Part shown: piece after piece, positions 44,532 to 64,000 of the stretch
How positions within the stretch are numbered: the stretch's first letter is position 1
Layout: every line of letters begins with the position of its first letter
Assembly: GCA_017610385.1 (NCBI GenBank)
Contig: JAFCCC010000004.1
Span: forward strand, 13,735-77,734
Reading direction: 5' to 3'
Length of the DNA: 64,000 nt
DNA from: Candidatus Nanohalarchaeota archaeon
GTDB taxonomy: Archaea > Nanohalarchaeota > Nanosalinia > Nanosalinales > JAFCCC01
Notes under the pieces: generated by a model
Databases searched by the model: none
The model's input: only the letters and a program-made list of their open reading frames with translations
What the model was told of the DNA's origin: nothing
Position numbers and translations under genes: made by a program

Positions 44532-44577
44532 GATTCGCCTCATATTATAAGTTACGAAAGTTTGTATATAAAACTAT

Positions 44578-44871: not shown

Positions 44872-46052
44872 TACATCCCCATCTTTTCAAGAAGCATTTC
44901 AATTAATTCTGCGTTCTTTTGTTTAGTATCTTCAAAAGCATTTTTTAGTTTATTTATTTCTCCTTTACCTGCTTTTGTAATTTCCAAATCCCTTAACTTA
45001 TCTTTGTATTTATGCAATTCATATTTCTTTAGTTCTTTAAGTGTCTCACGCAATTCTTTTTCTATCTCGTTTAATTCAGAGATATTATCTTTAACTTTTT
45101 CTTGATCACTTTCAATGGAAAATACCTTAACCATTAATTGTTCTAGTTTATTGTTCATCTCTAATAGTTGTAAATTCCGTTTTTCGAATGCCTCTTGAGT
45201 ATCTTTTAAGACTTGTTCTGTATGTTTTTCTTGTTCTTGTACTGTTGGTAACTCACGGGTTCTTTCATCAACATCTTTAATATTAATCTTAATTTTAGAA
45301 CAATCTGCCTTGGTGCTTTGTAATTCGTGTTTGAAATCCTTTAAAAGGTCTTTGATAGCAAGAACTTGTGCTGCGGTTTTTCCATTTTCAGTTAGTTTAT
45401 TCCAGATTAATTCATAAGATTGCTTTAATCTATCAAATGCAGGAGTCATAACAAAATCTGTTTCAATTCTATTTTTTAACTCATCAAATTCTTCTCTAAA
45501 CTTCTTGGCCCACAATAAGCTCATTTGTAATTCTTCTTCTTTTTTATCTAGTGTAGAAATTGAACCCATCATTTTTTTCTGAGTTTCTATTATTTCAAAG
45601 ACTTTCCCAGAAACTCCTTCTAAATCTTCTCTTTGTTTTTTCGATAGTTGATATTGTTCTTCTAGCTCTGCACTGTATTTTTCAATCTTTCTATCTAATT
45701 CATAAACTTCTGCCTTTGAAAAATCTTGATTTTCTTCTAATTTAATTATTCTCTGAACGAATTCAACATTTAATTTACTCTCTAAATTATGCAGAGTCTC
45801 TGTCAAAACAGCTATTTTTCGCATAGTTTCAGCTTCTGTTGTTTCTGATGTTCTAAATTCCTCATTGACTTTTTGTTTAAAGTCATCTGTACTTTTAACT
45901 AATTCCCAGATTTCTGAACGAAGTTCTTCTGATTCTTTGACATTTTTGTCTATTTTAGAAGTATATAAAACCCCTTTTTCTTCTAATTTCTTTTCAAAGT
46001 TCTGCCCAATTATTTCTATCTTCTGATTAATTGTTTGCTGTAAATTACCCAT
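44871..46052 (-). CDS. Coiled-coil protein, 3' part of a broken gene
   Basis: 393 residues from MGNLQQTINQK, almost entirely charged coiled coil. The tail QKNAELIEMLLEKMGM matches the tail RKNAEVVESMLDKMGI of the 611-residue protein at 46640-48475, so the two are related. The start has no clear ribosome site, and the codons before it, read in the frame of the middle fragment minus one copy of the 14-base duplication, continue the coil without a break (QGNEHVSHLKELMGNLQQ). I therefore think this is the C-terminal part of a longer gene; separate translation by re-initiation is possible. Confidence 0.7.
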   Translation of the reverse strand: MGNLQQTINQKIEIIGQNFEKKLEEKGVLYTSKIDKNVKESEELRSEIWELVKSTDDFKQKVNEEFRTSETTEAETMRKIAVLTETLHNLESKLNVEFVQRIIKLEENQDFSKAEVYELDRKIEKYSAELEEQYQLSKKQREDLEGVSGKVFEIIETQKKMMGSISTLDKKEEELQMSLLWAKKFREEFDELKNRIETDFVMTPAFDRLKQSYELIWNKLTENGKTAAQVLAIKDLLKDFKHELQSTKADCSKIKINIKDVDERTRELPTVQEQEKHTEQVLKDTQEAFEKRNLQLLEMNNKLEQLMVKVFSIESDQEKVKDNISELNEIEKELRETLKELKKYELHKYKDKLRDLEITKAGKGEINKLKNAFEDTKQKNAELIEMLLEKMGM

Positions 46053-46320: not shown

Positions 46321-46638
46321 CTAATTTCTTATCTGTATTTTAGTCAGTGTTTTAGTTTCCAAAGTAATAATTCTTTCTTTTAATTCCCTATTTTTTTCAT
46401 TTACTTTATCAAAATCCTTATCTACTAGCGATAAATTCCTATTCAATTGCTCACTTAAATTAAACGTAATTCTCTTTTCTAAATCACTCAATTTTGATTC
46501 GATAGGACTTAGTTTTGAAATTCGATTTTTCAGAGATTCAATTTCTTTCTGTCTCCTGTTATCCTTAGTTTTTATACTTTCAATACTACTGGTCACCCGT
46601 TCTTTTAACTCCGTTAGATGTTTTTCAATATCTTCCAT
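46321..46638 (-). CDS. Coiled-coil protein, 5' fragment of a broken gene
   Basis: I use the ATG at 46638 (MEDIEKHLTELKERVTSS), one base after the stop of the 611-residue gene, rather than 46671. About 105 residues of charged coiled coil end prematurely at TKIQIRN. Two bases fewer near 46330 would give TKIDKKLGQIQEEV and run into the middle fragment. Restored, the gene would encode roughly 590 residues, close to the neighbouring 611-residue paralogue. Confidence 0.65.
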   Translation of the reverse strand: MEDIEKHLTELKERVTSSIESIKTKDNRRQKEIESLKNRISKLSPIESKLSDLEKRITFNLSEQLNRNLSLVDKDFDKVNEKNRELKERIITLETKTLTKIQIRN

Positions 46639-46639
46639 T

Positions 46640-48475
46640 TTAAATCCCCATTTTATCAAGCATAGATTCAACTACTTCAGCATTCTTACGAAGTGCTCTT
46701 TCTAAAAATAGGTTGAGCTCCTTTAAATCTTGCATGTTTGCCTTTGATTCATTAACTTGTTTGATTTCAAATTCAAATTTCTTACCCAAACTAGAATTAT
46801 AATCTTTTAGTGCCACCAACCCATCTTTTAACTCTTGTTGACTTTGTTCTAATAAGAATAATTTCCCAGCCAAATTATTTATTTTGGTGTCTATTTGAAC
46901 ATCAATTAAACCTTTCTTTGTAAGTTCAGACTTATAATTTTCTAAAACCCGATTAAATCCTTTTTCTGAATCATTTAGTTCTTCCATTTTTCGTTCAACA
47001 GATTTAAATTGCCTTATATTTTCCTTAATCTTAGAATATTCTTTTTCAAAGTCCCCTAGTCTTGTAGATAATATTTTTAAAGAACTTTCAATTGGTTTCT
47101 GCCGTTCCCCGATTTCTTTAGTTTCATCTAGTCTTTCTTTGAATTCTTTTAGTTTTCTGGTAATCTTTCCAACATCTTCTTTGGTAATCACATCTGAAAT
47201 TTTCTCATTTAGCAAATTAGTTTGATTTTCAACAGATTTAATAGTCTTATACATAATTTCCTTGTTTAAACGCTCTAAAATAGCATTAATGTTTTCTATT
47301 CTTGATTTATTTGCTCGTTCTAATTCCAAATATGCTCTCTCAGAAATACTTCCTGTTTCAAAATCCTCCCGCGCTTTCTTCAATAGTTTCAGAATATTTC
47401 TTTTTTCACCTTCTAATTCTTCTGGACCTTCCATACTTCTAGAAAGAATCTCCATTTTTTCTTCTACTTTGCGGTCCAAATCATTGCTTTTTTCTTCTAA
47501 TGCTTGCTCTAAATTTGTGATTTTTTTGGAAATACCTTTAGTTAATTTACTAATTTCCAGTTTAATTTCATCAAAAGACCCAGATAGTTCTTTCTTTTGA
47601 GATTCGTTTTGCAATTTATATTTTTCCAAACTTTTTAAGGATTCTTCTAATTCTTTTAATTTTTCAGAAATTTCTTTGGGTAATTCTTTAATTCCAATAT
47701 TTTTAACTTCCTGCACCAATTGATTTTTAAATTTGTCTAAATCTGTTTTTTTGATGACATCTTCATTAAATTTTAAGTTTAATCCATCTTGTTGTTTTAC
47801 TAATTCTTGAGTTAATTCATCTACTTTTTCTATGGTACTTAGGTTTTTAGTTAAATCTGCGGTTTTATTATTCACTTCCATAAAAATGCTCTCTATTTTA
47901 GCGGCAATTCTTTCATTGTATCTTTTTGTGTGCTCAATCGAATCTATATCTTCTTTAATCTTATTTGATAACTCTACTAAATTTTCTAAACTTTTTATTT
48001 TTTCAAAAGAACCCCTAATTGACTTTAATTCATTATCAACGCTTCCAAATACTTTTTCATTTCTTTCTATTTTTGCAAAAGATTTATCCACCTCTAAATT
48101 TAATTTTTCAATTTTCATTGCAAATTTTTCTGGGGAAACCTCTTCCATAATTTCTTTAAATTTATCTATATTGAGTTCAATTTCTCTTTGAGATTTTTCA
48201 CGATCCAAAATCATTCTTCTTAAATCTCCAATCTCTTCAGAAACTCTATTTAATCTTTCATTTACCTGAGGTCTAAAGCTATCAACTAGTTCTAACTTTC
48301 CCCCCAGCTTCTCTATTTCTATAACAAGTTTTTCTACTTGAGAATCCTCGGTTTTTAAGAAAGGAGTTTGTTTTACTGGTTCTATTTTGGTTACCTTAAA
48401 TTTATTCCAGCAAGAATCACAAACACTACCTTTTTCGTCTTTCAAATCTTTTCCACAAATAATACATTTTCTCAT
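46640..48475 (-). CDS. Zinc-ribbon coiled-coil protein
   Basis: 611 residues. The N-terminus MRKCIICGKDLKD followed by VCDSCWNKF is a four-Cys zinc ribbon (CxxC-x(n)-CxxC). The rest is long coiled coil with one linker (FETGSISERAYLELE) resembling the short helical motifs that bring partner subunits together. The tail RKNAEVVESMLDKMGI is shared with the downstream coiled-coil gene. No membrane helix, so cytoplasmic. Its ATG overlaps the upstream stop as ATGA. It likely acts with the membrane ATPase upstream; the role is inferred from coupling only. Confidence 0.78.
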   Translation of the reverse strand: MRKCIICGKDLKDEKGSVCDSCWNKFKVTKIEPVKQTPFLKTEDSQVEKLVIEIEKLGGKLELVDSFRPQVNERLNRVSEEIGDLRRMILDREKSQREIELNIDKFKEIMEEVSPEKFAMKIEKLNLEVDKSFAKIERNEKVFGSVDNELKSIRGSFEKIKSLENLVELSNKIKEDIDSIEHTKRYNERIAAKIESIFMEVNNKTADLTKNLSTIEKVDELTQELVKQQDGLNLKFNEDVIKKTDLDKFKNQLVQEVKNIGIKELPKEISEKLKELEESLKSLEKYKLQNESQKKELSGSFDEIKLEISKLTKGISKKITNLEQALEEKSNDLDRKVEEKMEILSRSMEGPEELEGEKRNILKLLKKAREDFETGSISERAYLELERANKSRIENINAILERLNKEIMYKTIKSVENQTNLLNEKISDVITKEDVGKITRKLKEFKERLDETKEIGERQKPIESSLKILSTRLGDFEKEYSKIKENIRQFKSVERKMEELNDSEKGFNRVLENYKSELTKKGLIDVQIDTKINNLAGKLFLLEQSQQELKDGLVALKDYNSSLGKKFEFEIKQVNESKANMQDLKELNLFLERALRKNAEVVESMLDKMGI

Positions 48476-49491
48476 TTACTTGTTCCCACCTTCTTTTTTA
48501 ATGAAGTCAAATATTCTTGGCACATTTTGTACATCCCTTTATCATATTTTTCTTTTACTAATGCCAATTCAAGTTCTAAATCACGTAATCCCTTTTTCTG
48601 AGACAGTTTTTTAAGTGCAATTTCTATATTTTTTATTTGGTCTTTAAGTTCTGCAGGGCTTTTTTTGATTTTTTGTGATGCTTTATTTTTTAAATGCGCT
48701 TTGACACCTTTTAAATGTTCTATATTTAATTTTCTTTTTCTTACAATAAATTTCTTTCTCCCAAAACTCAAATAAAATATCAAAAGACCTATTGCGATTA
48801 TCGCTACAGAAACACCATATTTTAAAATCTTAGACCAAAGCTCTTTATTTTCCTTAGCTTTTAGAAGTAAATCTCTTTCCTTTGCCATAAACTCTGCAGT
48901 ATGATTTGAGTTCATGAGTACTCCCTCTATTTCTTCCAATGAAATTCTAATAGATTCCAAAGAAGTATATGCTGTATCGTAGTCTTCATCTGCATAGCTT
49001 TTTTTCGCGTCATCTAATTTAGTTCCCATTTCAAAAATCGATACTTTAATTTCATCAGAAGTTTCATTTAATAGTGATTTTAATACTTGTAATCTGCCTT
49101 CATAATACTCAATTAAACTTTTAATCTGATTTGGGACCTGACTAACTCTTATTGTAATTTGTTTAGAATAATTTTCACTTTCCATCCCCATTAAAAGAGG
49201 ATAATATCCAATTTTACTTCCAGATTTCACTGTTATAGTAACTGACTCTGCTGTTTGCGCATTCAGAAGAATCGTTTTTTGTTTTGGTTCAATAGCTAAA
49301 TCACTAGCCAAATTTAAGAGATATGCTCTTTCAATTCTATCTTGATTTAAAATCGTCAATTTAATAAAGTACGTAGAATTAGGGAGCATAATAATCTCTG
49401 ATGGTGCGCTTATTATTACTTCTGCATTTGTTAAGCCAACAAAAAGAAAAAATAAAGTCAAAAAAGCCGCCAATATAGCAAGTTTATTCAT
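48472..49491 (-). CDS. One-TM surface protein with cytoplasmic tail like the giant ATPase
   Basis: 339 residues. A signal peptide (MNKLAILAAFLTLFFLFVGL..NAE) precedes an exterior beta domain of about 90 residues resembling the NEW3/COG1470 type (LPNSTYFIKLTILNQDR ... KSGSKIGYYPLLMG), a helical stalk, one membrane helix (YGVSVAIIAIGLLIFYLSFG, about residues 240-260) and a cytoplasmic coil. The end, DLELELALVKEKYDKGMYKM..., resembles the last residues of the giant ATPase. The start overlaps the giant gene's stop (TAATG). Likely a membrane partner of that ATPase. Confidence 0.78.
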   Translation of the reverse strand: MNKLAILAAFLTLFFLFVGLTNAEVIISAPSEIIMLPNSTYFIKLTILNQDRIERAYLLNLASDLAIEPKQKTILLNAQTAESVTITVKSGSKIGYYPLLMGMESENYSKQITIRVSQVPNQIKSLIEYYEGRLQVLKSLLNETSDEIKVSIFEMGTKLDDAKKSYADEDYDTAYTSLESIRISLEEIEGVLMNSNHTAEFMAKERDLLLKAKENKELWSKILKYGVSVAIIAIGLLIFYLSFGRKKFIVRKRKLNIEHLKGVKAHLKNKASQKIKKSPAELKDQIKNIEIALKKLSQKKGLRDLELELALVKEKYDKGMYKMCQEYLTSLKKKVGTSK

Positions 49492-52400
49492 TATATCTTC
49501 TCCCCATAATTCTTTAGACTTTCTCTCAAACTTTCCATGTAGATTTCAGTCATTCTAAATGCCCCTGTTTTTAATTTATCTAATGCAAGTTTATACTCTA
49601 ATTCAATATCTGTAACGTCCGTTCCCTTCTCTTTAATTCTCTCAATAGCCAATTCAACTTTCTTTAATTCTTCTCCGAATTTCTTGTATGTTGAAAGTTC
49701 TTGCTCAGTAATTTTGTGTGGTTCGTGCAATAGCGGTCTAAATTTAATGAAATATGGCCTTCCTTTATTGTACTTTGGGTTCTGTAACATGCCTACACCC
49801 ACTTCTTCTTTTGTGACTCTCTTAGCGTAATCTTCTCCGTATTTGTCTTTTACACGACCAATATCTTCCAAAGCCTTTGTATGCATCTGAATTTCTGTTA
49901 ATACATTACCTCTTAATGCTTCTTTGAAATCTGCTAAAACCTGAGAAATCATAATTAGACCAATACCCCACTTTCTAAATTCTCTTGCAGCTTTTTCTAA
50001 TGCAATATAACCGCCTTTTCCACCATATCTTTCTAATAATCTATGAACCTCATCAAATACAATAAACATTTTTAGTTCAGTAGATTCTTCCCAAGGTTCC
50101 TTAAATATTGTACTTACAATAGAGCTTACTGCTTGATCATATTGCCCTGGCTTTAATTTATTTAATGTAAATATCGTAATCTCACCAGGATTCATATATT
50201 TCTTAAAGTCAATATGCAAATCTGGATCAGTTACTTCGTAAATCATTCCTTTAAATGGTCTGGAATCACTTTCTTTCATTCCAAATTCTTTATATAGTTT
50301 CAATAGATTTGGGTCTTTTACTCTTTTAACAAACCCAGTCCATTGTGCTGTTGGATCAAACACAATGATTGGAATATTTTTATTTAATAATTCTTCTACC
50401 ATGACCATCGCAGATACGGATTTGCCACTTCCTGTGGCCCCCGCAGTTATCATATGTGTACTTAAATCGGCGGAATTAAATGTGGCTTTTGTATTTGTTT
50501 CTGCTATTTTTCCCAAATACAAATCTCCTGATGGAAGTGTTTTGAAAGACATTGGGAAAATATACTTTGATTTAGACAATTTCCATTTTAAGTAATATCT
50601 CCTGCCGTAAAATGCACCCAACCCTCCCAAAATAACACCTAATATAGAAATAGCAATTATTATTCTTATAGGTGTCCAGAAGGGTTTAATTACTTCAAAT
50701 ATGTCTGCAGATGAAGCGGTTTTATTCTCATAGGTTGCTGTTGTTTCTATGAAATATCTACCCAAGTCAATATTTGTTAATGGTACTGATCTAACAAAGG
50801 ATAATGAGGTTTCCAAAGCTAATTCTTCCTCTTGTTGCAATAAAACCTTTTCACTGTCAATTGATTTTATATTATAGGTTAAATGCACATCAAACTTCTT
50901 CTTAAATCCTAAATTATAGATGGAAGTATGGAACTTTAAAGAACTATTTGAGGTTACGTATTTTGTTAGAGTCTCTACTTTAATATCTAATAGTGCTTCT
51001 TGTTCTGGAGTTACAAACAAGGTTACTGGAATTGTTTGTGAACTTGTCCCAACTGTTATTTTTATTTCTCCTGTATAAATTCCAGGCTGTGTTGTTGGTA
51101 ATGTAAACACTTTTACTTTAAGATCTTCTGTTGTGCCACCCTTCATTGTAAATACATCTTTTTCAAGTACGATATATTCCCATACAGAACCACTTACTTC
51201 TAATTTTGTTTCTTGAGTTGTTTCTTGATTATTTGTAATCCAAAGAGAATACATCTTACTATCTCCTGGGCTCAAAGTAGCTTCTATCAAATCTGTTTTA
51301 ACTGAAAAAGAGGGTACTGCCGCTTGTTCTTTATTTAATTTATCTAATTCATCTTGTAATTGACTTAATGAAACTCCTCCTCCTCCGCTACCTCCAGAAT
51401 AGCTAGTAGTGCTTCCACAAGAGCCACAGTCTTCTGAACAAGATGTGCAGGTTTCATATTGTGCGTCACATACACCATCTCCACAAACAACCATTTCTGC
51501 TACTGCATAAGCAGAGAAAGAAGTTAATCCAGTGACTGTAATAGTTTCTGAATTTACATCAGGCGTTCCGCCAACACAAACCCAAGTAGAATTGCAGCTT
51601 CTTGAATTAAAACTCCAATCTGAGCATTTATACACTCTTAGAGAATCAACATTAGTATAACTTGTTCCTGAGAAATTCAATTGTAATGATACTCTACTTA
51701 AATTAAAGGCATTTTGAACTGATAGTACTCTCTGAGTGCTTTTTGTACTGGTTACCCCTACGAATCTTAAAGGCACATCATCAAATTGTATGGGGTCAAG
51801 TGTATTTTCTGTAATTGGAACATCATACAGTGTAATCCAATGATCAAATGTTCTTATTTTCAGATCGTATGTTGCATTGTATATTGAAGAGTTATAATAT
51901 CCAGTTCCGTTTGTAGTTAAATTAAATTGATTATAATTTCCTTCTAAACTTTTATTTACTCTATATAATTCATAAGTAACATCTACGGTACTGTTTTGAG
52001 AATCCAAGAAATTTCCAGACAAAGTTATCTTATTGAAGAATACTTCAAACCAACCAGTATAATTATCATAGTTTCCAGTTGTATCATTAAAGCCTAGACT
52101 ATAATCATAACTGCCCAGTTCTGTGAGATTGTATAATAACACACTCCACGTAGTATTTGTTAAATTGCTTGTAACATTTGTTAAGGTATACTTTGTTACA
52201 GTTCCATTAGGATATGTCAAATTCAAGAAAACTTGACTAACATTCACATTATCTGAAATATTTGCATAAATGGTATTGTTTTGACCGTAGATTATGTCTG
52301 GAATAGTAACATGTTCTAAAATTGGTGCAGAAATATCTCTATAGGTTATCGCATTACTTTCTATGTCTGTACGTTCAGCACCTACTGTAGCATATGTTGC

Positions 52401-55400
52401 TTGTAATGTAATATCATATGTTTGTGCATCTGTGTTGTTTGGCGCCGTACAATTTAAATCCCAAAGTTCTATTGTGTTGTCGTAATTATAGCTTACGTTT
52501 TCACAAGCATTAGAACCAATAGCTGCTGTCCAAGTTATATTTTCATCTAAAGATTCGCCGGCCCAGGTTGCGTTTGCCGTTAAATTAATTAACTCCCCAG
52601 AACTAACATTTGTTAGTGGAGCAGTACTGTTTGGAGTCAATATATCCAGTCCAAATTCAGTTACTTTCATGGAAATAGACGTATTTGACTGAATCGGATT
52701 TGCAGTTAAATTTGAAATGGAAATTACTGCAGAATAATTCCCACCCAAAACCGGAGCAGTATAATTAATTTTAATTACTTCTGTATTTGTTGCATTAATT
52801 ACAAAATTAGAGGTATTTGCTGTAAGGTAATTAGATAGATTTCCAGAAATACTTAAGGAAAAATTAATTGGAACATTACCTATATTTGTGACATTAATTG
52901 TTCCTGCATCATCCTGATTTCCTGTACCGGTTATAATATTAGTAAAGTTACTCGGAGTTCTAGTCCAATTCAAATCTCGTGGTATAATAATATATGCAGG
53001 AATGCTGTCGTAATGTCTTATATCTCCTGTAGAATTTTGTGTTGTTATATTTAACCAAAGCGTGTAATTTCCAGGACTATAACCATACGGAACACCAACA
53101 TTCATTTGAATTAGTTTTAATTCTGAAATACTTAGGTTGAATAAGCTCTCATTGAAAGCTACACTAAATACATTACATAAATCAGAAGAGGCATTACATG
53201 TTAAATTGCTGTTATATAATTGATCATTCCCCGTTGAATTAATCAACAGATTTAGTGCTCCACTGTTATTATGCCAAATGTTTGTGGTCATTGAATTATT
53301 AATTATGTCTACAACTGGATTTGATTGCACCACAACAAGCACCCCATCGCTTGTAGCACTTGCAACTTGATTTGGATTTGTCCATTTTCCACTTGCATTT
53401 ATCCAATAATTTCCAGGACTGGTTCCTGCCGGAACTAATATGGAGGTTATATTGCTGTATATTTGTTGTTCTGTTATGTTTCCATATGTCAAATTACTTG
53501 GGGTCGCATTCCATCCTGTTGGAGTTGTTAAGGTTATATTTGACCAGTATCCTCCGCCCAATCCAGTATTATTCAAAGTCAGATTTAATGCAAAGTATTC
53601 TCCACTGCTTTGAGTAATTTCTGTAATGATAATGGTGCTTGAATTTGAAACAATACTCAAACTCGTTGTTGCAATTGCAGTAAATGTTTCCCCTGAACTG
53701 CTATTTATTAAAGAACTCATAGTGTCATTTGCCCACAATTTTACAGTATGTTCTCCCACCACAATTGGAGTATAATTATACTGGTAAGTTCCATTTAGAG
53801 AATCTCCAGCAATTCTCGTGGTAGTGTAATTCATTTGAGTTGAGTTTGGAAGAGTTAATTCAACCCACACTGTATTTGTTTCAATATTGTCTGAGACCTG
53901 ACCTTCCAAAATAACAGTTTCATAGTTCATATCAACTGAACTCTCACTTACACCAAAGCTTTCCATTTTTGGTGCAATATCCTGTACAGTTACATTAATT
54001 ACTGTTGCAAGAGATGAAGCAGTTCCGGTAATAGAACTATTTGCAAAAGATATACTTCCATAATAATAACCTACGTTGCTCGCGTCAAAGCTAATGTTAA
54101 ATACAGCTGTGCTATTTCTTAGAACATATATGTTTGTTGGCCAACCTGTTCCTAAATAATGTGTCATGGTGCCTAAAGAAGAAATATTTCCTGTTCTAGA
54201 AACCGTGTAATTTACAGCCTCATTTCCAGTATTATTTATTGTTATATTCCAGTTTACAGTAGTTGCATATGCAATTAATTGATTAAACGCACTTGGAGTA
54301 ATATTCCAAGAATAATCAGAAGGCACATTCACATTAATTGTAAAATTATCATGACAATTTGTTTCAGGTGTGCATGTTGATCCTGTAGCATTTGCTGTAA
54401 GATTTACTACATAATCCCCAGAATTATAATATTCTGGAACAGTTATGGTCACACCAACCCATCTGCTAGAAGCTTTGGCCAAATCATTTACACTTGGACC
54501 AAAATTAGAATACTCTATTGACCAATTTTGAGGTAACTGCTCTATAAATTCAATGTCTGATGCAAAATCATTCCCCTTTGATACCAGCCACAATGTGGTT
54601 TCATTACTGCTTCCATGATTAATCTTTATTGAAGATTCGCTTTCATTGATTTCCAAGATTGGATTGCTTTCAACATAAACCTGAGTTCTATTTTCCTTGT
54701 ACCCTACACTTAAATCTGGGTTTTGCCATGTGAAATTGCTCCAGATGCTATGTGTTTCTTGAGCACTGGCCTCATAGGTCATATTAACTTCAAAAGAATA
54801 TACACAAGTTTGTCCCAAGCTTAGATTAGAGCAATTTTCAAATGTAGAATTTATCACAAATCCAGAATCATAAGATATTGTCAAATTAACATATCTCATT
54901 AGGCCCAAGCCAGTGTTATTTAGTGTAACATTAAAGCTTAAAGTGTCGTTTTGTACTATACTGATATTTGACGCGGTTACACTAAGAGGATATTGAACAT
55001 TTGTTGAATTTAATGTTCCTATTACTGAAAAGCTTCCTGCATTTGTGCTGTTTACATTTCCAGAAGTGTCTGTTGCAAACAGAAGTACGTTATGAGTCCA
55101 ACCAGTTATTGGTGTATAAGTCACTTGATAAGTTCCATTTCTGTTATTTCCAGAAATCAAACTCATTGTTTCATTATGTTGAGTTGAATTATGTAGAGTA
55201 ATCTGCGCCAAAACACCAGAAATATTCAAATTATCACTTATGTTTGCACTAATATTCAAGGAATCGTACTGCGCTTCTAAAAGTGTTTTGCTGATATTTG
55301 TTCCTTCAAAGACCGCAGGAATATTATCCTCAACATTCATGTTTAATGTTGTATTTCTCTGTGGCGGATATGCTGTTGAATTTGAAATGGAAATCACTTG

Positions 55401-58400
55401 CTGATACAAGTCATAATTCTGGTGCAATGGAATTGTATAATTTATTGTTAGATTTTCTTCACTATTATTTTCAACATAAATGTATGCTGGAATTTCCAAA
55501 AGTGATGAAGCATTTCCAGAATTACTAATTGAGTAATTCAAATCAATGGCTCCTGTATTATTAATTAGAATTCTTATCTCGTTATTAGTGTTTGTATAAT
55601 ATGTAGAGCTATTAGTTTCTGGAGTCCTGTTCCATGTTTTATCTGTTAATGTAATTATAGTATTATTTGTCAAAGTTGAAATTGTTCCATTTGGATTTTC
55701 ATAATTCACAGTATAATTTATAGTATAATTTCCAGCAGGTGTTGCATTTAGCGCAGTTATTTCAATTGCTTTTGTACATGTTGACCCAGAAACTCCTGAT
55801 TCTTCTATCTTTCCGCAGTTTATTGATGTTTCATTTGCACTAATGTTCGTTGGTGTGCTTATTGTTAGATTTGTGGCATATGCCCCACCAAGCCCAGTAT
55901 TATTAAACGTCAAAATTGCAATAAAACTTTCATTATTATTATAAGTTACACTAGAAAGTTCTATTGTAGTCACATTTGTTTTAAATGTGGCATTAGTGTA
56001 CCCAACAACTGTAAAGTAGTTTATTTCAGATGTGTTAGTTTCTTTAGAGGTGTCTCTCGCGTATATATATACATTTTGATAACCCAGGGTTGTAAAGCTT
56101 AAATTATACTGGTAAGTTCCGTTTTTGCTGTTCCCAGAAACCAGATCCATTAGAGCTGCTCCAACAGTATTACCTAATAATTGAACAATTTCTATTTCAA
56201 TATTGTCAGAAACATTCGACTGGAAGATTAATTCTTCTTTATTCTGATCAACAATTCCTTGGGTAGATGGCGCGATTATTGAAAAGTCTTCTATTATCGG
56301 CTTTTGATTATCTTCTACAATTATTGTTTCATTTGCTTCTGTTAAAGAAACATTATAATATAGTGTTTGATTATTGGATATTATGCTGCGTATTAAGAAA
56401 ACTGCTTCTAAATTATTATCAGAATCACTATCTAATACATATAATGAAGTTAGATTTACCGGAGTCCAAGATATTTTTGCCCATCCAGTTGAATTAGTGT
56501 AACTCGTTCCTATTTCTGTGTTATTATAATAGAACACCACAGGATAGTTTTCTATCGGGTTTGAGCTATTTGAATCAACAACCGCACAACTTACATTTAA
56601 TACATTTGTTTGATTATGAATTGGAATGTTCGGAGAAATCGTAATATTTTCAACCCGGCTCCAACCAGAAATTTCCAAGTCAATTAATGCAGTATTATTA
56701 TCATAATAAGTTCTGTTGCTGGTTGCGTTTATTGTGAAGAGAGATTCACCATAGCTTGCAGGGATTGTCCAGTTTATTTGTTCATTAGTGTTGCCTGTTG
56801 CCAATACGGTTCCAGTAGAATTTACAATTGTTATGGATGCTGCCACGTCATTATTATTCTCATCAATTGCAGTAGTATTAAATGTAACTACTTCTGTTTT
56901 ATGATATATTGACTCATTCGCAGGACTTACAATAGTTGTAGACAATATTCCTTTTGCTACTACCCAACTTGCTGAATCTATTGACGGATTTCTTGCAGGA
57001 TGTGACGCATTCGCATAAACTGAATAATTCCCAGGCACAATCGTATCTGAGATATTATATGTTATATTACACCAGCCAGTTGAATTTGTTAAGCAGGTTC
57101 CAATTGTAACATTATTATGATCTCTTAATTGTACTGTTGCCCCTTCTTGATCACCCAATAACGCTCTTGTGACTTGCATTTCAAAGTAAGCGGAATTTGG
57201 ACTAAATGAATCATTTCTATAAAATGTTTGATTTGTTACTAAAATTGTGCTTACAGTTAATTCATCTTTTAGTTCAATTAATTCAGAAGTTTCAGCTAAT
57301 GAACTATTATAATATGATGTGGAATTATCAGTTATATTTGCTTTAATTTCATACCATCCAGCATTTTCTTCAGTGGTGTTCCAACTATAATACGCAGTGC
57401 CATCACTTTCTGTATAATTAATTCCCAATAATGTGTTATTTTTCCAGAATGAAACAGGATAACTTGCAATATTATTTGAATTATTTGCGTCAATTACTTT
57501 TACACTTATTTGAATCTGACTTCCAACCAAATCCCAATTTGCTCCTACGGAATCTATGTCAAATTCACTTACATTGCTCCACCCATAAAATATTACTTCA
57601 ACCAAATCAGAGCTTGAATCATAATAACTTCCGCTTACATTTGCTGTTAAATTCATTGATCCTAAAGTATGATTATTACTTACAACCCAATATGTGTCTT
57701 CTCCTGTAGCAACGGTTCCTCCTGTCGAATTATGCCACGTTACAGTAAAGGAATCAATTGCCGGTGTTCCAGTTAAATCACTTACAGTTGAAGTCAAACT
57801 TAAGTTTTCTGTTCTGTGAACAATTTGGCTTGCACTTGGCGTATTAATTGTAATTGTTAACGTATCATTCAAAATTGTGCTTGTACTATCTAATATTATA
57901 TTTCCATCGTAGAAGCTCGAGGTCAAATTCTCAATTCTCACAGTCAAATTATATAATCCCAATGAAACAGATCCATTTGCAACCCAACTCACATTACAAT
58001 TTCCAGTTGAATTTGTTGTGCTATTTCCTATATTTGTATTGTTCGCATAGAATGCGCACTCATAACCGGAAATTCCTGTTCCAGTCAAAGAATCAACTAC
58101 TGTTGCATTCAAAGTCAAATTATTCATTCTATAAAGTGTGCTTGATGCCTCTTGGTCAAGCGAAACATTTGCTTTACCCCAAATTACAATGCTTGTTTCA
58201 TTAACAGCAGAATTATAATTAGTTAAATTACTTGAAACATTTAGGATATAGCTTCCCAAAGCTTTATCATTCGGAATTAACCAGGTTCCATCTTCTGTAT
58301 TATTAATTTCAGATGCATTCAAATACCAGAACGTGCTTGCCCCACTGTCAGAACAATCATAGGAAACTGTTGAATTCAACTCGATTGTTTCTGATTTGTA

Positions 58401-61400
58401 GAACTTCTGATTTTCAGCTGGCAAATTAATTACTGTTCCCAAAGTACCAAGAACAGTTACATCATGTTCTGAACCATTAATTAAATCATACTTTGAATCA
58501 TTTGTTCCTATGATCCAGTGTTGGGCCCCGACTGCAAAACTGCAAGTTGGATCAAATGTCATGTTTACATAACCATTATTTGAAGTCCAGTTTTGCTCAT
58601 ATACTGTGTAAGTACTTCCGTCTGTTGTAACCCACAATGAAACATTTACTCCGCTTTCAATCAATGTGCTTCTGTCAGTATCATTCAATTGTACTTTAAA
58701 TGTGGCCACGTTTGTTCCAGTTCTATTAACTTGCGAGTTGTTCCCAGCCACGTAACTTATACTCACATTGTCTCTTAAAACCACTACTGAACTTGGATTA
58801 TATTCATTAATACCGCTGTGGCCGTCACTTGCATTAAACTTAAACCACTGAGTTCCAATATCACTTGAGTTTCTGTTCCAGCCAGGATTGATTACAAAAG
58901 CAATTGCAGTATTGACGCAGCCTCCCGTACAATCTTGATTTGTTGAATTAATTAATTCCCAATTTCCTGTTCTATTATACCATAATGAGATATTAACTGT
59001 GTCAGGATTTGGATCAGTTAAGTTAATATTATAAGTCCAAGTTTCTCCCCAACCACCATCTTCGTCATAAGAATAATCAGAATCACTCAAAACAGGGCTT
59101 GTTGTATTTACTGTAAATTTATCACTAAATTCTTGTGAATTATCATTGTAATTTGTTTTGGAGCTGTTAATTCTAACAGAGTAAGTTCCATAAGTTTGAT
59201 CATCTGGAATGGTCCATGTACAATTATAATATCCAATAGTACTTCCTGTTTCATTATTAATTAAACAACTTGAACTAATATCTTCCCAGTTTCCAGAAGT
59301 TTCTTTTACTTCAAGTGTTTGAACCACATTTTCAACCAAGTTTGAATTGTCTTCTGTAACATTCCACCCAAATATAATTGAATCTGTTCCACTTCTGTAC
59401 GTTTCTACATCAGGAATAATCAGATTAGATGTTAAATTACCTAAAACAGTTAATGTATAATTTTCAGTTTCATTATCTGTATAATAAGCTCCTGTATAGT
59501 TTGTTTTCCACTTCTTTTCCCCCACCAAAAAGTTATTTTCAGGATTCCAGAATATTGTTGCGTTTCCATCAGAATCAGTTAGGTTGTATCCTATCAAACC
59601 CCATTCATCTGTTTCAAACAGCCAGAAGGAAACATTTTCTCCTTCAACAAAAACAATCCTATCTGTATCATTAAATCTTACACCTAATTCAACTGTTTCA
59701 GAGCCAATTCTATTAACATTTGAGTTATTTCCTGCTTTGTAGATCAAACTGGAATTATCTTTTTCAACTGTTACATTATATATAGAGGTATTTGCCCAGT
59801 CGTGAAGTGGAGTTCCATCGGCACCGCTTAAGTCAGTATATTCAAACAAATAATTTCTGATTCCAATGTCGTTTTCATTAAACGGAGTAATATACCATGA
59901 AAAGTTCCCTGAGCTCCAAACCTTCTTTGTTTCATTCTTTTCCCACCCAGAACTTCTATTAATCCATAAAGTGACATTAAACCAGTTAGTGTTTATGTCA
60001 AAACCGCTGACTGTGAAATTAAATGGCTCTCCCCAACCACCCGAACTTGGAACAACATTTTCCTCAGACAAAACAGGAGCGTCATTTGAAACAGTGACAT
60101 TCAAAATAATATCCTTGTAACAGTCATTTTCATTATCACAAATGCTGTCTGAAGCGTTAACTCTGATGGTTCCCCAGTAGCTATAATCTACCGAAGCAAA
60201 TGACTGCGGATGAACGTTAATCTGAACATTCTGATAGGAACACCCACTTAAATTAAAATTATTTGGACTAAAGAGTACTGTGAAGTAATTAGTCAAGCAT
60301 AGTGATCCTCCACCAGGATTGGTTGTTCCTCCGCTTCCTACTACACATTGAATTGTCATATTCGTTAAAATACCATTCCCAGTTGAATTAACAGTCAAAT
60401 TAGCAACATTGCTTGTAATCTCTTGTGAAGCATTGCCTGACAAGCTGCTTTCTGTCAAGTTAAGTATTTTCTTATCAGCAACTGTGATGTTTATTGAAGT
60501 TTCATTTGTTCCGATGCTGTTATTTGAATTAAGCCACTGTGCTGTTGCATTTAGTATATAACTTCCTGGAGGAGTGCAGCTTGAAATTGAAACTGTGCTT
60601 TCATTTGAATAAATTGTGCTTTCTGTGATATTCCAGTACTCTAAAGTAGATGGAGTAGCGGTCCATGCAGACCAATTCTCATTTCCTTGCGGCAATTCCC
60701 AGGTTGTATTTGCCCAGTAAGCTCCTGAGTTCCCAGTGTTGTTCAAAGTAATATTAAACACAGTAGAATTTGTAGTGTATTGTGTTATTCCTGTAATTGT
60801 AACGGCACTTATGTTTGAAAGTACACTTAGATTTGTTTTTGGAACTGCAGTAAACTGATACTGAGCAGTATGATTTTCATTGGAAGTTGTATCATTTGCA
60901 TAAATAGTAATATTGTGCGCGCCTTCGATTACTGGAGTATAATTATACTGGAAAGTACTACCAGAGACAAGAGTTAATGTTCTGTTAACTTGCGTTGAAT
61001 TTGGCATACCAATTACAGCCCATACAACAAACTCATTAGCTGCATCAACATTGTCGCTTACATCTGTTTGAATTACAACGTGCTCATAATTCATGTCTAG
61101 GCTGGTTGGAGAAACCGAAGTTGAGCTGAACGTAGGTTCAATATTATCCAAAGTAAATGAAATAACATCTGTTGCATTCCAGTTTCCAGAAGAATCATTT
61201 AGATAAATTCTCCAGTGTACAATTGAACCAGAACTTAATCCTTCAGTATCAATACTAAAGTTGCTCCAGGATTCATTTGAACTGAAAGTTAAATTAGAAC
61301 TTGTTTCTGAGCTATTGCTCCATGATCCTGTTTTATTTACACTTAAAATAGCCCAGCTTAAGTTAACATTATCTGTCCAGTAAGTGCTTACATTAACCAA

Positions 61401-64000
61401 GTCTCCGACAGCAGGCATATTTGTATTTTGGCTCTGAGCATACCAATACGGTTTTGTATTGTCTTCAATTGTCAGGGTTATTGTCACATTATGTTGTTCT
61501 GGATTATAATTTAATCCTGCAGTATTATTTGTAATTGAAACGATTGTTTCATAAATTCCAGTAGTTTGATGCAATGAAATCGAGTAATTTATTAATATAT
61601 TTGCTGAAGTTTGTTTGCTTAATGTTGGAGTTGTATCTGAAATAGCAATTAAACTGCTTCCATTTCCTGATTTAGTGATAGTAAATACTTCTTCTACGTT
61701 TCCGGTATTGTTAATTGTAATATTAAACAGATCTCCACTAGTATCTTGAGCTAAAGTAGAACTATTTGTTTCAGGACTTCTGGTCCAAGAGCTATTTGTC
61801 AGAACTTCAACATTTAATGTAATATTCTGCCAGCATTGTTCTATAGGAGAGCAAACAGAATCTGTTGCATTAGCCCTTACAATTCCAGAATAATTTCCTG
61901 GATCTAATCCTGTGGTAGTATTAACACTTATTTGAACTGATTGAGTGCTTCCATCTTCCAAACTTGTTATATTGTCAGGAGTAAAGTCTACTGTAAAATT
62001 CGTAGTCTGAGTACAAACTTCCCCTGAAATGCAACTGTAAGTTGTATTATATAGATAATCATTTCCTGTTGAATTAACTGTGAAATTAGAGCTGTTTAAT
62101 TTTCCATGTTCAATTGTAATATTAACTTCAGATTCATCCAGATCTAGAATAGGATTGCTGCCTAGTATCACAACAGTAACATTTAAGACCCCTCCGTCCG
62201 CATTTGAGGAATTTGGTTGTGTCCAGTTTCCGGCGAAATTCAAAGTATAAGTTCCAGGATCTGTTGCACTTGGGATAGTTATTTCAAAGGATGTTGAACA
62301 GTTAGTTCCTATTCCAATTGCTCCGCATTCATAATTTGTTTCATTTATTAACCAGCCAGAAGGCATTGCAGAAGCATTACTTATGTTTGCACTGTACATT
62401 CTTCCATTTCCTGTATTATTTAAAGTCATATTTGTAATGAAACTGAATCCAGTAGTTTGATTAATCAGATTATAAGTCAAACTTTCATTTCCCAACAAAA
62501 TCCCTGTAGTGGTATGATTTTCCAAGTAGAACTCTTTATGATTGCTGATGGTGCCTCCAGAATAATATGAGCTATCATCACTGCTTGAATTAATTTTAAT
62601 ATCATAATAACCCAAAGTTTTTCCAGAGCTGTTAAATGTACAGTTATATTTACCATAGTATCCTTTACTGCTCATGTCATTTGCAGGGCTCGGATTACAA
62701 GAACTTACAATTCCCGTTGAATTATCAATTGCCCAGAAATACACATTCAAATTAGAGTATTGTATAGTCGGATCGCAGTATGTGCTTGCATTGCCTTTAA
62801 AGGTAATTTGTTGTCCCTCAAACCGATAATCATTTGCATAACTGCTTTCAACAGAGTCTATATCAAAGATACTATGAATTATTTGCCCGTAAATTCTATA
62901 TGATTGGTCACTCTGGTTTGTTTCCTTGTATATGGCATTTGTTTTTAATTCTGCTTTCCATTTCTGGTTTGCAGTCCAGTATGAGCAATCAGGAGTCAAG
63001 GCAGTAAGGCAGGCTCCTGTTGAATCTGTTGTGTTGGAGAGATCAATAACATAATCGCCACCGGTCTGTGTGAACCAAATTCCACAATCAAATCCAGAAC
63101 TTATGTTTTCATTTCTATCTGAATCATACATTCTTACTTGGAATGTATGGGTATCTGATTCATTCCTTACAAGTATCGGATTTCCTCCGCCTTCTAAAAC
63201 AGTAAATGAAATATCATCTTTTATTACAGTAACATTTTCTGCTGCTGCTTCATCTGTTCCTAATTCGCCGTCACTTGCATTAAACTTAAACCATTGAGTT
63301 CCAAGATCAGTTGAGTTTCTGCTCCAGCCAGGATCAATAACCAAGCTAATTAATTGATCAGAACATCCACCAGAACAATCAACATTTGTTGTATTAATCG
63401 CTTCCCAGCTCCCTGTTCTGTTATACCACAAAGTTAGATTGATTGTGTCGTGTCCAGTGTAACTTACATTTACAGAATAGTTCCAGGCTTCACCCCAACC
63501 ACCATCTCCTTCATAACTGTGAATTGAAGTGCTTAGTGAAGGTGCAACATTGTTTATAGTTAGATAATAACTTACACCAGAATTATTTGCGCTAAAGTTG
63601 GCGTTTCCACTCAAATTCGCCTTAATTTCATAAATTTCATTTTCATAGTTTCCCAAATACGTTTCATTCCAGACCAAATTATTAGAGTTATTCCAAAGAG
63701 TTAAGGTTCCTGTCAAATTCGTCCAAATGTTCACATTAAGTCCGTTGATAGAATAACTTTCCCAGGCAGTTAAATTAGCAGTTTCATTTTCATAATATTC
63801 TTTGTTTGCTTGAGTTCCATTTAGTGCCAAGTAAACTATTGGATCTGCTTTATTTACAACATATTGTAAAGTAGAAGTTTCATTCCAATTATTAGCAGAA
63901 TCGTTTGCATACCACGTAAAGTTATATCCGCTTACATTCGCAACCAAATCAGTTAAGGTAATATAATACACATTTCCATTATTTTGAATTGCAGGAGTTG
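49491..64000 (-). CDS. Giant surface protein fused to a cytoplasmic HerA/DUF87-type ATPase, 5' end outside window
   Basis: The frame is open to the right edge; at least 4835 residues are visible and the true start is beyond 64000. About 4000 residues are Asn/Ser/Thr-rich beta modules (Ig-like, NEW3, CARDB-like), dense with N-glycosylation sequons. Near 51420-51490 is a Cys-rich CGDGVCDAQYETC..CSEDCGSC motif, then a Gly-rich linker with a short coil, further NEW3-like domains, one membrane helix (WTPIRIIIAISILGVILGG, ~50600-50690) and, inside the cell, a P-loop ATPase: GATGSGKS at 50418-50441, Walker B MFIVFDEVHRLL and FRKWGIGLIMISQV, as in HerA/VirB4-like enzymes. A helical tail ends it. First gene of the coupled minus-strand operon. 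Biological role unknown. Confidence 0.88.
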   Translation of the reverse strand, partial: TPAIQNNGNVYYITLTDLVANVSGYNFTWYANDSANNWNETSTLQYVVNKADPIVYLALNGTQANKEYYENETANLTAWESYSINGLNVNIWTNLTGTLTLWNNSNNLVWNETYLGNYENEIYEIKANLSGNANFSANNSGVSYYLTINNVAPSLSTSIHSYEGDGGWGEAWNYSVNVSYTGHDTINLTLWYNRTGSWEAINTTNVDCSGGCSDQLISLVIDPGWSRNSTDLGTQWFKFNASDGELGTDEAAAENVTVIKDDISFTVLEGGGNPILVRNESDTHTFQVRMYDSDRNENISSGFDCGIWFTQTGGDYVIDLSNTTDSTGACLTALTPDCSYWTANQKWKAELKTNAIYKETNQSDQSYRIYGQIIHSIFDIDSVESSYANDYRFEGQQITFKGNASTYCDPTIQYSNLNVYFWAIDNSTGIVSSCNPSPANDMSSKGYYGKYNCTFNSSGKTLGYYDIKINSSSDDSSYYSGGTISNHKEFYLENHTTTGILLGNESLTYNLINQTTGFSFITNMTLNNTGNGRMYSANISNASAMPSGWLINETNYECGAIGIGTNCSTSFEITIPSATDPGTYTLNFAGNWTQPNSSNADGGVLNVTVVILGSNPILDLDESEVNITIEHGKLNSSNFTVNSTGNDYLYNTTYSCISGEVCTQTTNFTVDFTPDNITSLEDGSTQSVQISVNTTTGLDPGNYSGIVRANATDSVCSPIEQCWQNITLNVEVLTNSSWTRSPETNSSTLAQDTSGDLFNITINNTGNVEEVFTITKSGNGSSLIAISDTTPTLSKQTSANILINYSISLHQTTGIYETIVSITNNTAGLNYNPEQHNVTITLTIEDNTKPYWYAQSQNTNMPAVGDLVNVSTYWTDNVNLSWAILSVNKTGSWSNSSETSSNLTFSSNESWSNFSIDTEGLSSGSIVHWRIYLNDSSGNWNATDVISFTLDNIEPTFSSTSVSPTSLDMNYEHVVIQTDVSDNVDAANEFVVWAVIGMPNSTQVNRTLTLVSGSTFQYNYTPVIEGAHNITIYANDTTSNENHTAQYQFTAVPKTNLSVLSNISAVTITGITQYTTNSTVFNITLNNTGNSGAYWANTTWELPQGNENWSAWTATPSTLEYWNITESTIYSNESTVSISSCTPPGSYILNATAQWLNSNNSIGTNETSINITVADKKILNLTESSLSGNASQEITSNVANLTVNSTGNGILTNMTIQCVVGSGGTTNPGGGSLCLTNYFTVLFSPNNFNLSGCSYQNVQINVHPQSFASVDYSYWGTIRVNASDSICDNENDCYKDIILNVTVSNDAPVLSEENVVPSSGGWGEPFNFTVSGFDINTNWFNVTLWINRSSGWEKNETKKVWSSGNFSWYITPFNENDIGIRNYLFEYTDLSGADGTPLHDWANTSIYNVTVEKDNSSLIYKAGNNSNVNRIGSETVELGVRFNDTDRIVFVEGENVSFWLFETDEWGLIGYNLTDSDGNATIFWNPENNFLVGEKKWKTNYTGAYYTDNETENYTLTVLGNLTSNLIIPDVETYRSGTDSIIFGWNVTEDNSNLVENVVQTLEVKETSGNWEDISSSCLINNETGSTIGYYNCTWTIPDDQTYGTYSVRINSSKTNYNDNSQEFSDKFTVNTTSPVLSDSDYSYDEDGGWGETWTYNINLTDPNPDTVNISLWYNRTGNWELINSTNQDCTGGCVNTAIAFVINPGWNRNSSDIGTQWFKFNASDGHSGINEYNPSSVVVLRDNVSISYVAGNNSQVNRTGTNVATFKVQLNDTDRSTLIESGVNVSLWVTTDGSTYTVYEQNWTSNNGYVNMTFDPTCSFAVGAQHWIIGTNDSKYDLINGSEHDVTVLGTLGTVINLPAENQKFYKSETIELNSTVSYDCSDSGASTFWYLNASEINNTEDGTWLIPNDKALGSYILNVSSNLTNYNSAVNETSIVIWGKANVSLDQEASSTLYRMNNLTLNATVVDSLTGTGISGYECAFYANNTNIGNSTTNSTGNCNVSWVANGSVSLGLYNLTVRIENLTSSFYDGNIILDSTSTILNDTLTITINTPSASQIVHRTENLSLTSTVSDLTGTPAIDSFTVTWHNSTGGTVATGEDTYWVVSNNHTLGSMNLTANVSGSYYDSSSDLVEVIFYGWSNVSEFDIDSVGANWDLVGSQIQISVKVIDANNSNNIASYPVSFWKNNTLLGINYTESDGTAYYSWNTTEENAGWYEIKANITDNSTSYYNSSLAETSELIELKDELTVSTILVTNQTFYRNDSFSPNSAYFEMQVTRALLGDQEGATVQLRDHNNVTIGTCLTNSTGWCNITYNISDTIVPGNYSVYANASHPARNPSIDSASWVVAKGILSTTIVSPANESIYHKTEVVTFNTTAIDENNNDVAASITIVNSTGTVLATGNTNEQINWTIPASYGESLFTINATSNRTYYDNNTALIDLEISGWSRVENITISPNIPIHNQTNVLNVSCAVVDSNSSNPIENYPVVFYYNNTEIGTSYTNSTGWAKISWTPVNLTSLYVLDSDSDNNLEAVFLIRSIISNNQTLYYNVSLTEANETIIVEDNQKPIIEDFSIIAPSTQGIVDQNKEELIFQSNVSDNIEIEIVQLLGNTVGAALMDLVSGNSKNGTYQYNLSFTTLGYQNVYIYARDTSKETNTSEINYFTVVGYTNATFKTNVTTIELSSVTYNNNESFIAILTFNNTGLGGAYATNLTISTPTNISANETSINCGKIEESGVSGSTCTKAIEITALNATPAGNYTINYTVNYENPNGTISTLTNNTIITLTDKTWNRTPETNSSTYYTNTNNEIRILINNTGAIDLNYSISNSGNASSLLEIPAYIYVENNSEENLTINYTIPLHQNYDLYQQVISISNSTAYPPQRNTTLNMNVEDNIPAVFEGTNISKTLLEAQYDSLNISANISDNLNISGVLAQITLHNSTQHNETMSLISGNNRNGTYQVTYTPITGWTHNVLLFATDTSGNVNSTNAGSFSVIGTLNSTNVQYPLSVTASNISIVQNDTLSFNVTLNNTGLGLMRYVNLTISYDSGFVINSTFENCSNLSLGQTCVYSFEVNMTYEASAQETHSIWSNFTWQNPDLSVGYKENRTQVYVESNPILEINESESSIKINHGSSNETTLWLVSKGNDFASDIEFIEQLPQNWSIEYSNFGPSVNDLAKASSRWVGVTITVPEYYNSGDYVVNLTANATGSTCTPETNCHDNFTINVNVPSDYSWNITPSAFNQLIAYATTVNWNITINNTGNEAVNYTVSRTGNISSLGTMTHYLGTGWPTNIYVLRNSTAVFNISFDASNVGYYYGSISFANSSITGTASSLATVINVTVQDIAPKMESFGVSESSVDMNYETVILEGQVSDNIETNTVWVELTLPNSTQMNYTTTRIAGDSLNGTYQYNYTPIVVGEHTVKLWANDTMSSLINSSSGETFTAIATTSLSIVSNSSTIIITEITQSSGEYFALNLTLNNTGLGGGYWSNITLTTPTGWNATPSNLTYGNITEQQIYSNITSILVPAGTSPGNYWINASGKWTNPNQVASATSDGVLVVVQSNPVVDIINNSMTTNIWHNNSGALNLLINSTGNDQLYNSNLTCNASSDLCNVFSVAFNESLFNLSISELKLIQMNVGVPYGYSPGNYTLWLNITTQNSTGDIRHYDSIPAYIIIPRDLNWTRTPSNFTNIITGTGNQDDAGTINVTNIGNVPINFSLSISGNLSNYLTANTSNFVINATNTEVIKINYTAPVLGGNYSAVISISNLTANPIQSNTSISMKVTEFGLDILTPNSTAPLTNVSSGELINLTANATWAGESLDENITWTAAIGSNACENVSYNYDNTIELWDLNCTAPNNTDAQTYDITLQATYATVGAERTDIESNAITYRDISAPILEHVTIPDIIYGQNNTIYANISDNVNVSQVFLNLTYPNGTVTKYTLTNVTSNLTNTTWSVLLYNLTELGSYDYSLGFNDTTGNYDNYTGWFEVFFNKITLSGNFLDSQNSTVDVTYELYRVNKSLEGNYNQFNLTTNGTGYYNSSIYNATYDLKIRTFDHWITLYDVPITENTLDPIQFDDVPLRFVGVTSTKSTQRVLSVQNAFNLSRVSLQLNFSGTSYTNVDSLRVYKCSDWSFNSRSCNSTWVCVGGTPDVNSETITVTGLTSFSAYAVAEMVVCGDGVCDAQYETCTSCSEDCGSCGSTTSYSGGSGGGGVSLSQLQDELDKLNKEQAAVPSFSVKTDLIEATLSPGDSKMYSLWITNNQETTQETKLEVSGSVWEYIVLEKDVFTMKGGTTEDLKVKVFTLPTTQPGIYTGEIKITVGTSSQTIPVTLFVTPEQEALLDIKVETLTKYVTSNSSLKFHTSIYNLGFKKKFDVHLTYNIKSIDSEKVLLQQEEELALETSLSFVRSVPLTNIDLGRYFIETTATYENKTASSADIFEVIKPFWTPIRIIIAISILGVILGGLGAFYGRRYYLKWKLSKSKYIFPMSFKTLPSGDLYLGKIAETNTKATFNSADLSTHMITAGATGSGKSVSAMVMVEELLNKNIPIIVFDPTAQWTGFVKRVKDPNLLKLYKEFGMKESDSRPFKGMIYEVTDPDLHIDFKKYMNPGEITIFTLNKLKPGQYDQAVSSIVSTIFKEPWEESTELKMFIVFDEVHRLLERYGGKGGYIALEKAAREFRKWGIGLIMISQVLADFKEALRGNVLTEIQMHTKALEDIGRVKDKYGEDYAKRVTKEEVGVGMLQNPKYNKGRPYFIKFRPLLHEPHKITEQELSTYKKFGEELKKVELAIERIKEKGTDVTDIELEYKLALDKLKTGAFRMTEIYMESLRESLKNYGEKI
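58821..59085. repeat. Internal DNA-level repeat of the giant gene, copy A
   Basis: This segment closely resembles 63267-63520 at the DNA level, with identical runs such as TCACTTGCATTAAACTTAAA. It encodes a ~90-residue module beginning DEDGGWGETW and containing SLWYNRTGNW and GTQWFKFNASDG. Similarity at DNA level within a much more diverged protein suggests recent duplication or gene conversion. A third, diverged copy lies near 59800-60070 (SSGGWGEPFNF). Confidence 0.75.
63267..63520. repeat. Internal DNA-level repeat of the giant gene, copy B
   Basis: Counterpart of 58821-59085, encoding EGDGGWGEAW, TLWYNRTGSW and GTQWFKFNASDG, about 4.4 kb away in the same orientation. Recombination between the two copies would delete a whole number of codons only if the interval is a multiple of three (63267-58821 = 4446, which is), so the frame would be kept. 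Confidence 0.75.

Follow-up and report, generated by a model that had tools for sequence, protein, structure and literature searches.

What could a single polypeptide do that carries thousands of residues outside the cell and a motor ATPase inside it? This question is raised by a locus in a 64,000-nucleotide stretch of a Nanohalarchaeota genome (henceforth the window; the genome is 788 kb and 93.5% complete), where an earlier sequence-only reading had noticed a giant surface protein fused to a HerA/DUF87 ATPase. It touches a wider one, namely how DPANN symbionts and their hosts exchange material, for which the SPEARE family, to which this giant belongs, is among the best candidates. Some of its members rank with the largest proteins of archaea, and they combine adhesion with a motor in one chain.

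The frame concerned (49491-63998(-)) contains no stop over 4,835 codons, which bears out the earlier statement that at least 4800 residues are encoded without interruption, and it is still open at the window edge. This edge is also the end of the contig (C8, 77,734 bp), so the 5' end and the signal peptide of the giant are lost here and the true protein is longer. The contig, whose extension had been proposed as the way to find both, stops at this edge, and when the 600 residues at the start of the visible part were used as a query against the genome, only repeats within the same ORF came back. In complete relatives, the giants do possess an N-terminal hydrophobic signal.

The topology of the visible part is clear from several signals. 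A single strong transmembrane helix, as had been claimed, lies at aa 4446-4464 (50607-50663(-)); its mean KD hydrophobicity is 2.38, and that of the next-best segment in the protein is 1.41. The ectodomain before it (aa 1-4438 of the visible part; 50685-63998(-)) consists of NEW3/Ig-like beta modules and contains 316 N-glycosylation sequons, compared with 127 +/- 9 in shuffled sequences, while the cytoplasmic part after the helix contains none; the net charge is -276 outside versus +9 inside. Pfam places NPCBM_assoc/NEW3 (5.9e-17) outside and DUF87 (1.2e-9) inside, and it finds no serine protease domain in the visible part. The exterior is therefore sequon-rich, as the sequence-only reading had it, but where that reading speaks of "thousands of beta modules", residues must be meant: at about 100 aa each, the ectodomain would comprise some 45 modules.

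A frame that runs into a contig end could be an assembly artefact in which an adhesin gene has been joined to a HerA gene. The relatives make this explanation next to impossible. The nearest, in the same order (G001), is 60% identical across the ectodomain, the helix, and the ATPase; complete single-contig genomes encode giants of 8,573, 8,880, and 9,409 aa with the same domain order in one ORF; and the fusion recurs in several genera with complete genomes, as well as in several phylum-level lineages. A frameshift or an assembly join is rejected because dozens of independent assemblies keep the one-ORF order, and the succession of ectodomain, helix, and ATPase that was to be sought in other DPANN genomes is found there, complete chromosomes included. 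Nor are the relatives always encoded as two genes: in the great majority of 80 loci fetched with a profile, most of them cut by the 10-kb flank or a contig end, the ATPase ends one long ORF and is preceded by a helix, and a few loci are unresolved (L123 and L124 look split). An in-frame stop in L016 is the natural end of the protein; stops are likewise flagged in some other relatives.

The architecture is thus genuine, but it is not new. The sequence-only reading knew of no described system of this kind, yet the SPEARE proteins have been published (PMC6642349, PMC10266531, PMC8470020). They were named in 2019 by Hamm et al., who took the cytoplasmic part for a restriction enzyme (PMC6642349); a member of 12,127 aa was reported in 2021 (PMC8470020); and Reva et al. 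re-identified the cytoplasmic domain in 2023 as a VirB4/TraG-like secretion ATPase and proposed that the protein is a secretion straw (PMC10266531). The window giant is a SPEARE protein: it is a very long and mostly extracytoplasmic polypeptide with a membrane helix on the C-terminal side and a cytoplasmic C-terminal part. The signal peptide and the laminin-G or other adhesion domains that mark the N-terminal end of SPEARE proteins would, in the window giant, fall beyond the contig end. Two giants found here in the order of the window genome have exactly the published lengths (9,409 aa in G017 and 8,880 aa in G003), and the cytoplasmic domain of the window giant is 39-42% identical to those of SG9 and of the carriers of these two giants. 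From these published relatives, it therefore follows that the window giant is a further member, from another family of the same order. The suggestion that it is a surface-contact machine agrees with the published view of the SPEARE family.

The distribution was established by a profile scan of GTDB species genomes, which gave 293 relatives, of which 80 were kept. These are mostly from Aenigmatarchaeota; Pace-, Woese-, Parv-, Micr-, and Altiarchaeota, Jingweiarchaeum, Nanohaloarchaeota, and Hydrothermarchaeum are also represented, and lone matches from bins of Heimdallarchaeota and Omnitrophota may reflect errors in binning. With a whole-genome match at E <= 1e-60, carriers make up 23/34, 54/156, 5/10, and 3/28 genomes in four phyla, and none of the 147 genomes of an archaeal phylum with larger genomes matches at the same threshold. 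The SPEARE family is, in short, widespread in small-genome archaea, and the longest open frame among the relatives reaches 12,145 aa. One full SPEARE-type gene (L059) lies on a 1.9-Mb contig of Candidatus Hydrothermarchaeum profundi, which by its name is not DPANN; horizontal transfer or a wider ancestry is possible.

What kind of motor does the giant carry? The HerA-type P-loop ATPase domain (49701-50597(-)), for which the closest fold is SsHerA 4d2i, displays in order Walker A GATGSGKS (aa 4520-4527; 50418-50441(-)), a strand FDPTAQW, Walker B IVFDEVHR (aa 4646-4653; 50040-50063(-)), and REFRKWG (aa 4672-4678; 49965-49985(-)), a candidate arginine finger at the position of "EGRKFG" in HerA; it is followed by a C-terminal helical hairpin (49494-49706(-)), which the model and an alignment show to be common to the giant and the product of the next gene, P0002. 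Both Walker motifs are those that had been read from the sequence. Across 59 sequences, each of the motor motifs shows no or almost no variation; one count of motif conservation is partly built in, its scan having been seeded with two motifs, and an independent set gives the same result. An AF2 model of the helix plus the ATPase, made from the 59-sequence alignment, has a pLDDT of 93.1, and its nearest solved structure by Foldseek and VIA-align is HerA 4d2i (Z 26.4 over 255 residues, 3.0 A), followed by VirB4 (Z 23.2), TrwB (19.1), and FtsK (about 18). The comparison with HerA, VirB4, and TrwB that had been recommended thus comes out in favour of HerA, which is also first when a sequence profile is compared with the PDB (4d2i, 3.9e-13).

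The P-loop core with its Walker A and B and its RKxG motif is that of HerA, and the profile and the modelled fold support the view that the cytoplasmic end is an FtsK-HerA ring ATPase closest to HerA. There is no room in the giant for the N-terminal HAS barrel because only about 50 residues separate the membrane helix from Walker A, and there is no adjacent NurA gene, the neighbours being P0002, coiled-coil proteins, and a pilin-like protein. The restriction endonuclease of the 2019 reading was also considered for the cytoplasmic part and rejected: ResIII is a weak P-loop match, and DUF87/HerA is far better. 

Other genes in the window deserve mention in their own right. A canonical HerA gene (32866-36351(-), DUF87 1.5e-25) is separate from the SPEARE giant and contains an intein (LAGLIDADG plus helix-turn-helix) inside its Walker A (GSGK|C...HN|S). 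A type II/IV secretion-type (PilB/FlaI-like) ATPase of 1,215 aa (15407-19054(+)) has an intein with LAGLIDADG at aa 261-948, so that two motor ATPases in the window have inteins near the P-loop. A 923-aa protein (22889-25660(-)) has a von Willebrand factor A domain. A prepilin peptidase A24 and two archaeal pilin-like proteins are encoded at 36457-37371, 40157-40609, and 44094-44543, and for the pilin that comes right after the SPEARE operon, G001 has a homologue at the same place.

The published proposal that the giant is the straw of a true type IV secretion system, with VirB4/TraG-type ATPases injecting protein effectors into the host, appeals to an adjacent second ATPase and to a VirB4 N-domain (PF03135) claimed in SVXNc_0299 (PMC10266531). 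It would also suit the 11-nm cytoplasmic bridges between a SPEARE carrier and its host and the foreign methylation in the genome of the SVXNc host (PMC11001535), which fit a transfer without tying it to the SPEARE protein. VirB4 is indeed close in fold, and TrwB/T4SS-DNA_transf models exceed the Pfam cut-off in the window giant. However, HerA outscores VirB4 both by profile and by fold. PF03135 is absent at E<=0.1 from the counterpart of SVXNc_0299, so the published claim was not reproduced, and it is found in none of ten carrier genomes, although the same search is positive in control genomes. VirB6/TrbL (PF04610) is likewise found in 0/10 carrier genomes, with a search that is positive in the controls, a result to be read with the proviso that a very divergent archaeal VirB6 analogue would escape the model, just as divergent archaeal VirB2 analogues lie beyond the reach of the models used. 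The pilins near the locus are archaeal type IV pilin-like genes (class III signal). Since HerA is the best match for the motor, and since PF03135 and VirB6/TrbL were both missing from the ten carrier genomes, the "type IV secretion" label is not supported, and we consider such a system quite unlikely. The label is now steering the literature and should be either dropped or proved.

The stop codon of the giant shares one base with P0002 (48472-49491(-)), a partner membrane protein with a signal peptide, an Ig domain, a helix, the hairpin, and no ATPase; P0002 overlaps by four bases with P0003 (46640-48475(-)), for which Pfam and neighbourhood comparison indicate an N-terminal zinc ribbon and a long coiled coil. 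A small coiled-coil ORF of 116 aa (46321-46671(-)) and the coiled-coil protein P0004 (393 aa; 44871-46052(-)) probably belong to the same operon. P0002 resembles the giant at two points: its Ig domain matches the membrane-proximal Ig domain of the giant (hhalign E 5e-6, probability 86%), and its C-terminal hairpin scores 85 against that of the giant, compared with 29 +/- 6 for shuffles (0/2000 as high) and 62 for the best other coiled-coil stretch.

Genes like P0002 follow the giant in G001, in G045, and in loci from Pacearchaeota, Aenigmarchaeota, and Altiarchaeota. Nanosalinaceae, Woesearchaeota, and some others have, instead of P0002, a short paralogue that combines a signal peptide with an Ig pair, a helix, and a full ATPase; the Hydrothermarchaeum partner resembles this short paralogue but stops after the helix. 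A second ATPase gene directly downstream, of the SVXNc/BNXNv type, is absent from the window and from most relatives, and the window's genome contains only one strong copy of the ATPase. A cytosolic coiled-coil protein comes next in nearly all loci, the version in the window being the one with the zinc ribbon; these neighbours fell into one 120-member component partly through coiled-coil similarity, and for this reason only their position is claimed, not their homology. The operon of giant, small membrane partner (an ATPase paralogue or ATPase-less), and cytosolic coiled-coil protein is conserved. In many Aenigmarchaeal and Altiarchaeal loci (L101, L105, L109, L120, L128, and L131), a second surface protein, of about 600-2,100 aa with a helix on the C-terminal side, and/or a MinD/ParA-like ATPase lies near the SPEARE gene.

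Do the giant and its short neighbour work together? Within a locus, their ATPase halves are 73-97% identical, and the adjoining outer halves only 16-30%; in 7/8 loci, the ATPase identity within the locus is at or above that between orthologues. In four Nanosalinaceae, the outer halves form two clades, one of giants and one of shorts (100/100), which means that the duplication is old. The ATPase halves of the same proteins reject these clades (delta lnL 75.6, AU p 0.000227). This test covers four genomes; for another four loci, the agreement comes from identity and tree alone. In a wider tree, giant and short pair by locus in L089, L090, L091, G003, and G020. In G003, G008, G017, L085, and L091, giant and short share runs of 26-50 identical codons, whereas orthologous giants share no run longer than 15; this suggests that the motor half has undergone gene conversion. 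The G020 pair has 97% protein identity but only 85% DNA identity, so that here selection, rather than recent conversion, has likely kept the two alike. Conversion also seems limited to the motor half in L089, L090, L091, L133, and L137.

Sequence identity is thus maintained only where the proteins would build a ring, and the simplest explanation for this is a mixed ring: to judge from these sequences, the giant and short subunits probably share one ring. An external partner common to both is the alternative. If the ring is indeed shared, it offers a concrete and testable complex for purification, and conversion confined to the motor half could be useful as a general sign of shared rings.

The arm and the membrane are connected by a distinctive joint. 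Comparison with relatives reveals a Cys-rich motif, CGDGVCDAQYETCTSCSEDC, followed by an SGGSGGGG linker (51375-51485(-)); the Cys motif occurs in 59/81 proteins, about 310-400 residues ahead of Walker A, and either the motif or a Gly/Ser linker run in 74/81. Next comes a membrane-proximal pair of Ig-like domains (50685-51323(-)), recognised from an AF2 model and a fold search. The model of the pair plus the helix has a pLDDT of 96.3, and its nearest fold is WxLIP 9i1y (Z 13.6), from Gram-positive surface complexes, which is only loosely superposable as a pair. In a cultured relative, the ectodomain and the TM/cytoplasmic piece were found in different gel fractions (PMC6642349), so the arm and the motor may be separated after synthesis; a cleavage near the Cys/Gly joint would explain this.

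How might these parts operate? We give roughly even chances to the idea that SPEARE proteins make up the base of a membrane translocase that works on contact, in which a HerA ring bears giant host-binding arms. A signal peptide would export the glycosylated arm of 4,400+ residues, which would reach out and bind a partner cell, while the Cys-rich/Gly joint and the Ig pair would dock it beside the single membrane helix. Beneath the membrane, the HerA-type ends would assemble as a six-membered ring that would also contain the small co-operonic subunit, namely the ATPase paralogue in Nanosalinaceae and Woesearchaeota or the ATPase-less P0002 here; not every position in the ring need then carry an arm because the small membrane subunit would share it. 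The cytosolic coiled-coil protein of the operon would probably feed or regulate the ring, and once contact is made, ATP hydrolysis would drive a polymer, either DNA or unfolded protein, through the membrane where the two cells touch. The path of the polymer through the membrane is unexplained because no channel-forming polytopic protein is conserved in the operon, where the neighbours are bitopic or soluble. The different gel fractions of arm and motor in the cultured relative also count against the model.

Alternatively, the ring could pull DNA of the host or the environment into a nucleotide-dependent symbiont, as in Ced/Ted. HerA is a DNA translocase (4d2i, 9x1m), the HerA/VirB4-like CedB imports DNA (PMC9905601), and a MinD/ParA-like gene lies near several relatives, as it does in Ted loci. 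Against this, no polytopic channel with six or seven helices like CedA is conserved in the SPEARE neighbourhood, and the structure leaves both substrate and direction unfixed; such an uptake machine seems unlikely. Still less likely is that nothing is translocated and that the ATPase ring serves to cluster, position, tension, or release the arms of a mechanical or regulatory adhesin. The proteomic suggestion that the arm is cleaved from its base (PMC6642349) would fit this explanation, as would the lack of a channel component, and of an ATPase in P0002. Bitopic subunits and coiled-coil partners would also suit a scaffold. Nevertheless, the full set of translocase motifs is invariant, and the FtsK-HerA ATPases that have been described typically pump polymers.

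To the published picture of the SPEARE family, the present analysis adds its spread, partner subunits that are probably in the ring, the lack of any sign of a type IV secretion system, an ATPase-less partner, and co-evolution of the motor alone. These features raise the tentative suggestion, in which our confidence stays below even, that the SPEARE complexes are a class of their own among contact-dependent translocases, independent of T4SS. Giant adhesive arms and small subunits without arms would share a mixed HerA ring, gene conversion limited to the ATPase half would keep the motors compatible, and in some lineages, that of the window among them, a partner without ATPase would have replaced the small subunit.

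Comparison with known systems places the window giant closest to the SPEARE proteins of Nanohaloarchaeota (Ca. Nanohaloarchaeum antarcticus, SG9, SVXNc_0300, and BNXNv_0298), with which it shares the giant Ig-like ectodomain, the one helix on the C-terminal side, a homologous ATPase (the 600-aa C-terminal modules are about 40% identical), a helical/coiled C-terminal tip, and an operon that also encodes a small membrane partner and a coiled-coil protein. It differs in the partner gene: the ATPase-less P0002 stands at the position that in SG9, SVXNc, and BNXNv belongs to a short paralogue with an ATPase. HerA itself offers the same ATPase fold and motifs and the best match in profile and structure, but, unlike the HerA of the HerA-NurA complex for DNA-end resection, the giant is anchored in the membrane and has neither a HAS barrel nor a NurA neighbour. 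With VirB4 and TrwB of type IV secretion, it has the FtsK-HerA superfamily and the association with the membrane in common, and a hexameric ring is to be expected in it; it differs in carrying an exterior arm in cis and, to judge from the ten carrier genomes, in having no VirB4 N-domain and no VirB6/TrbL. The Ced/Ted systems also have a HerA/VirB4-like ATPase (CedB) at the membrane and ParA/MinD-like genes, which lie beside some SPEARE loci too, whereas no conserved polytopic channel like CedA adjoins the SPEARE gene. Finally, TraB of Streptomyces and TdtA of Thermus, ring ATPases for DNA transfer from cell to cell that need no type IV or other full secretion apparatus (PMC5365140), are precedents in this respect, although, unlike SPEARE, they are without an extracellular adhesive arm.
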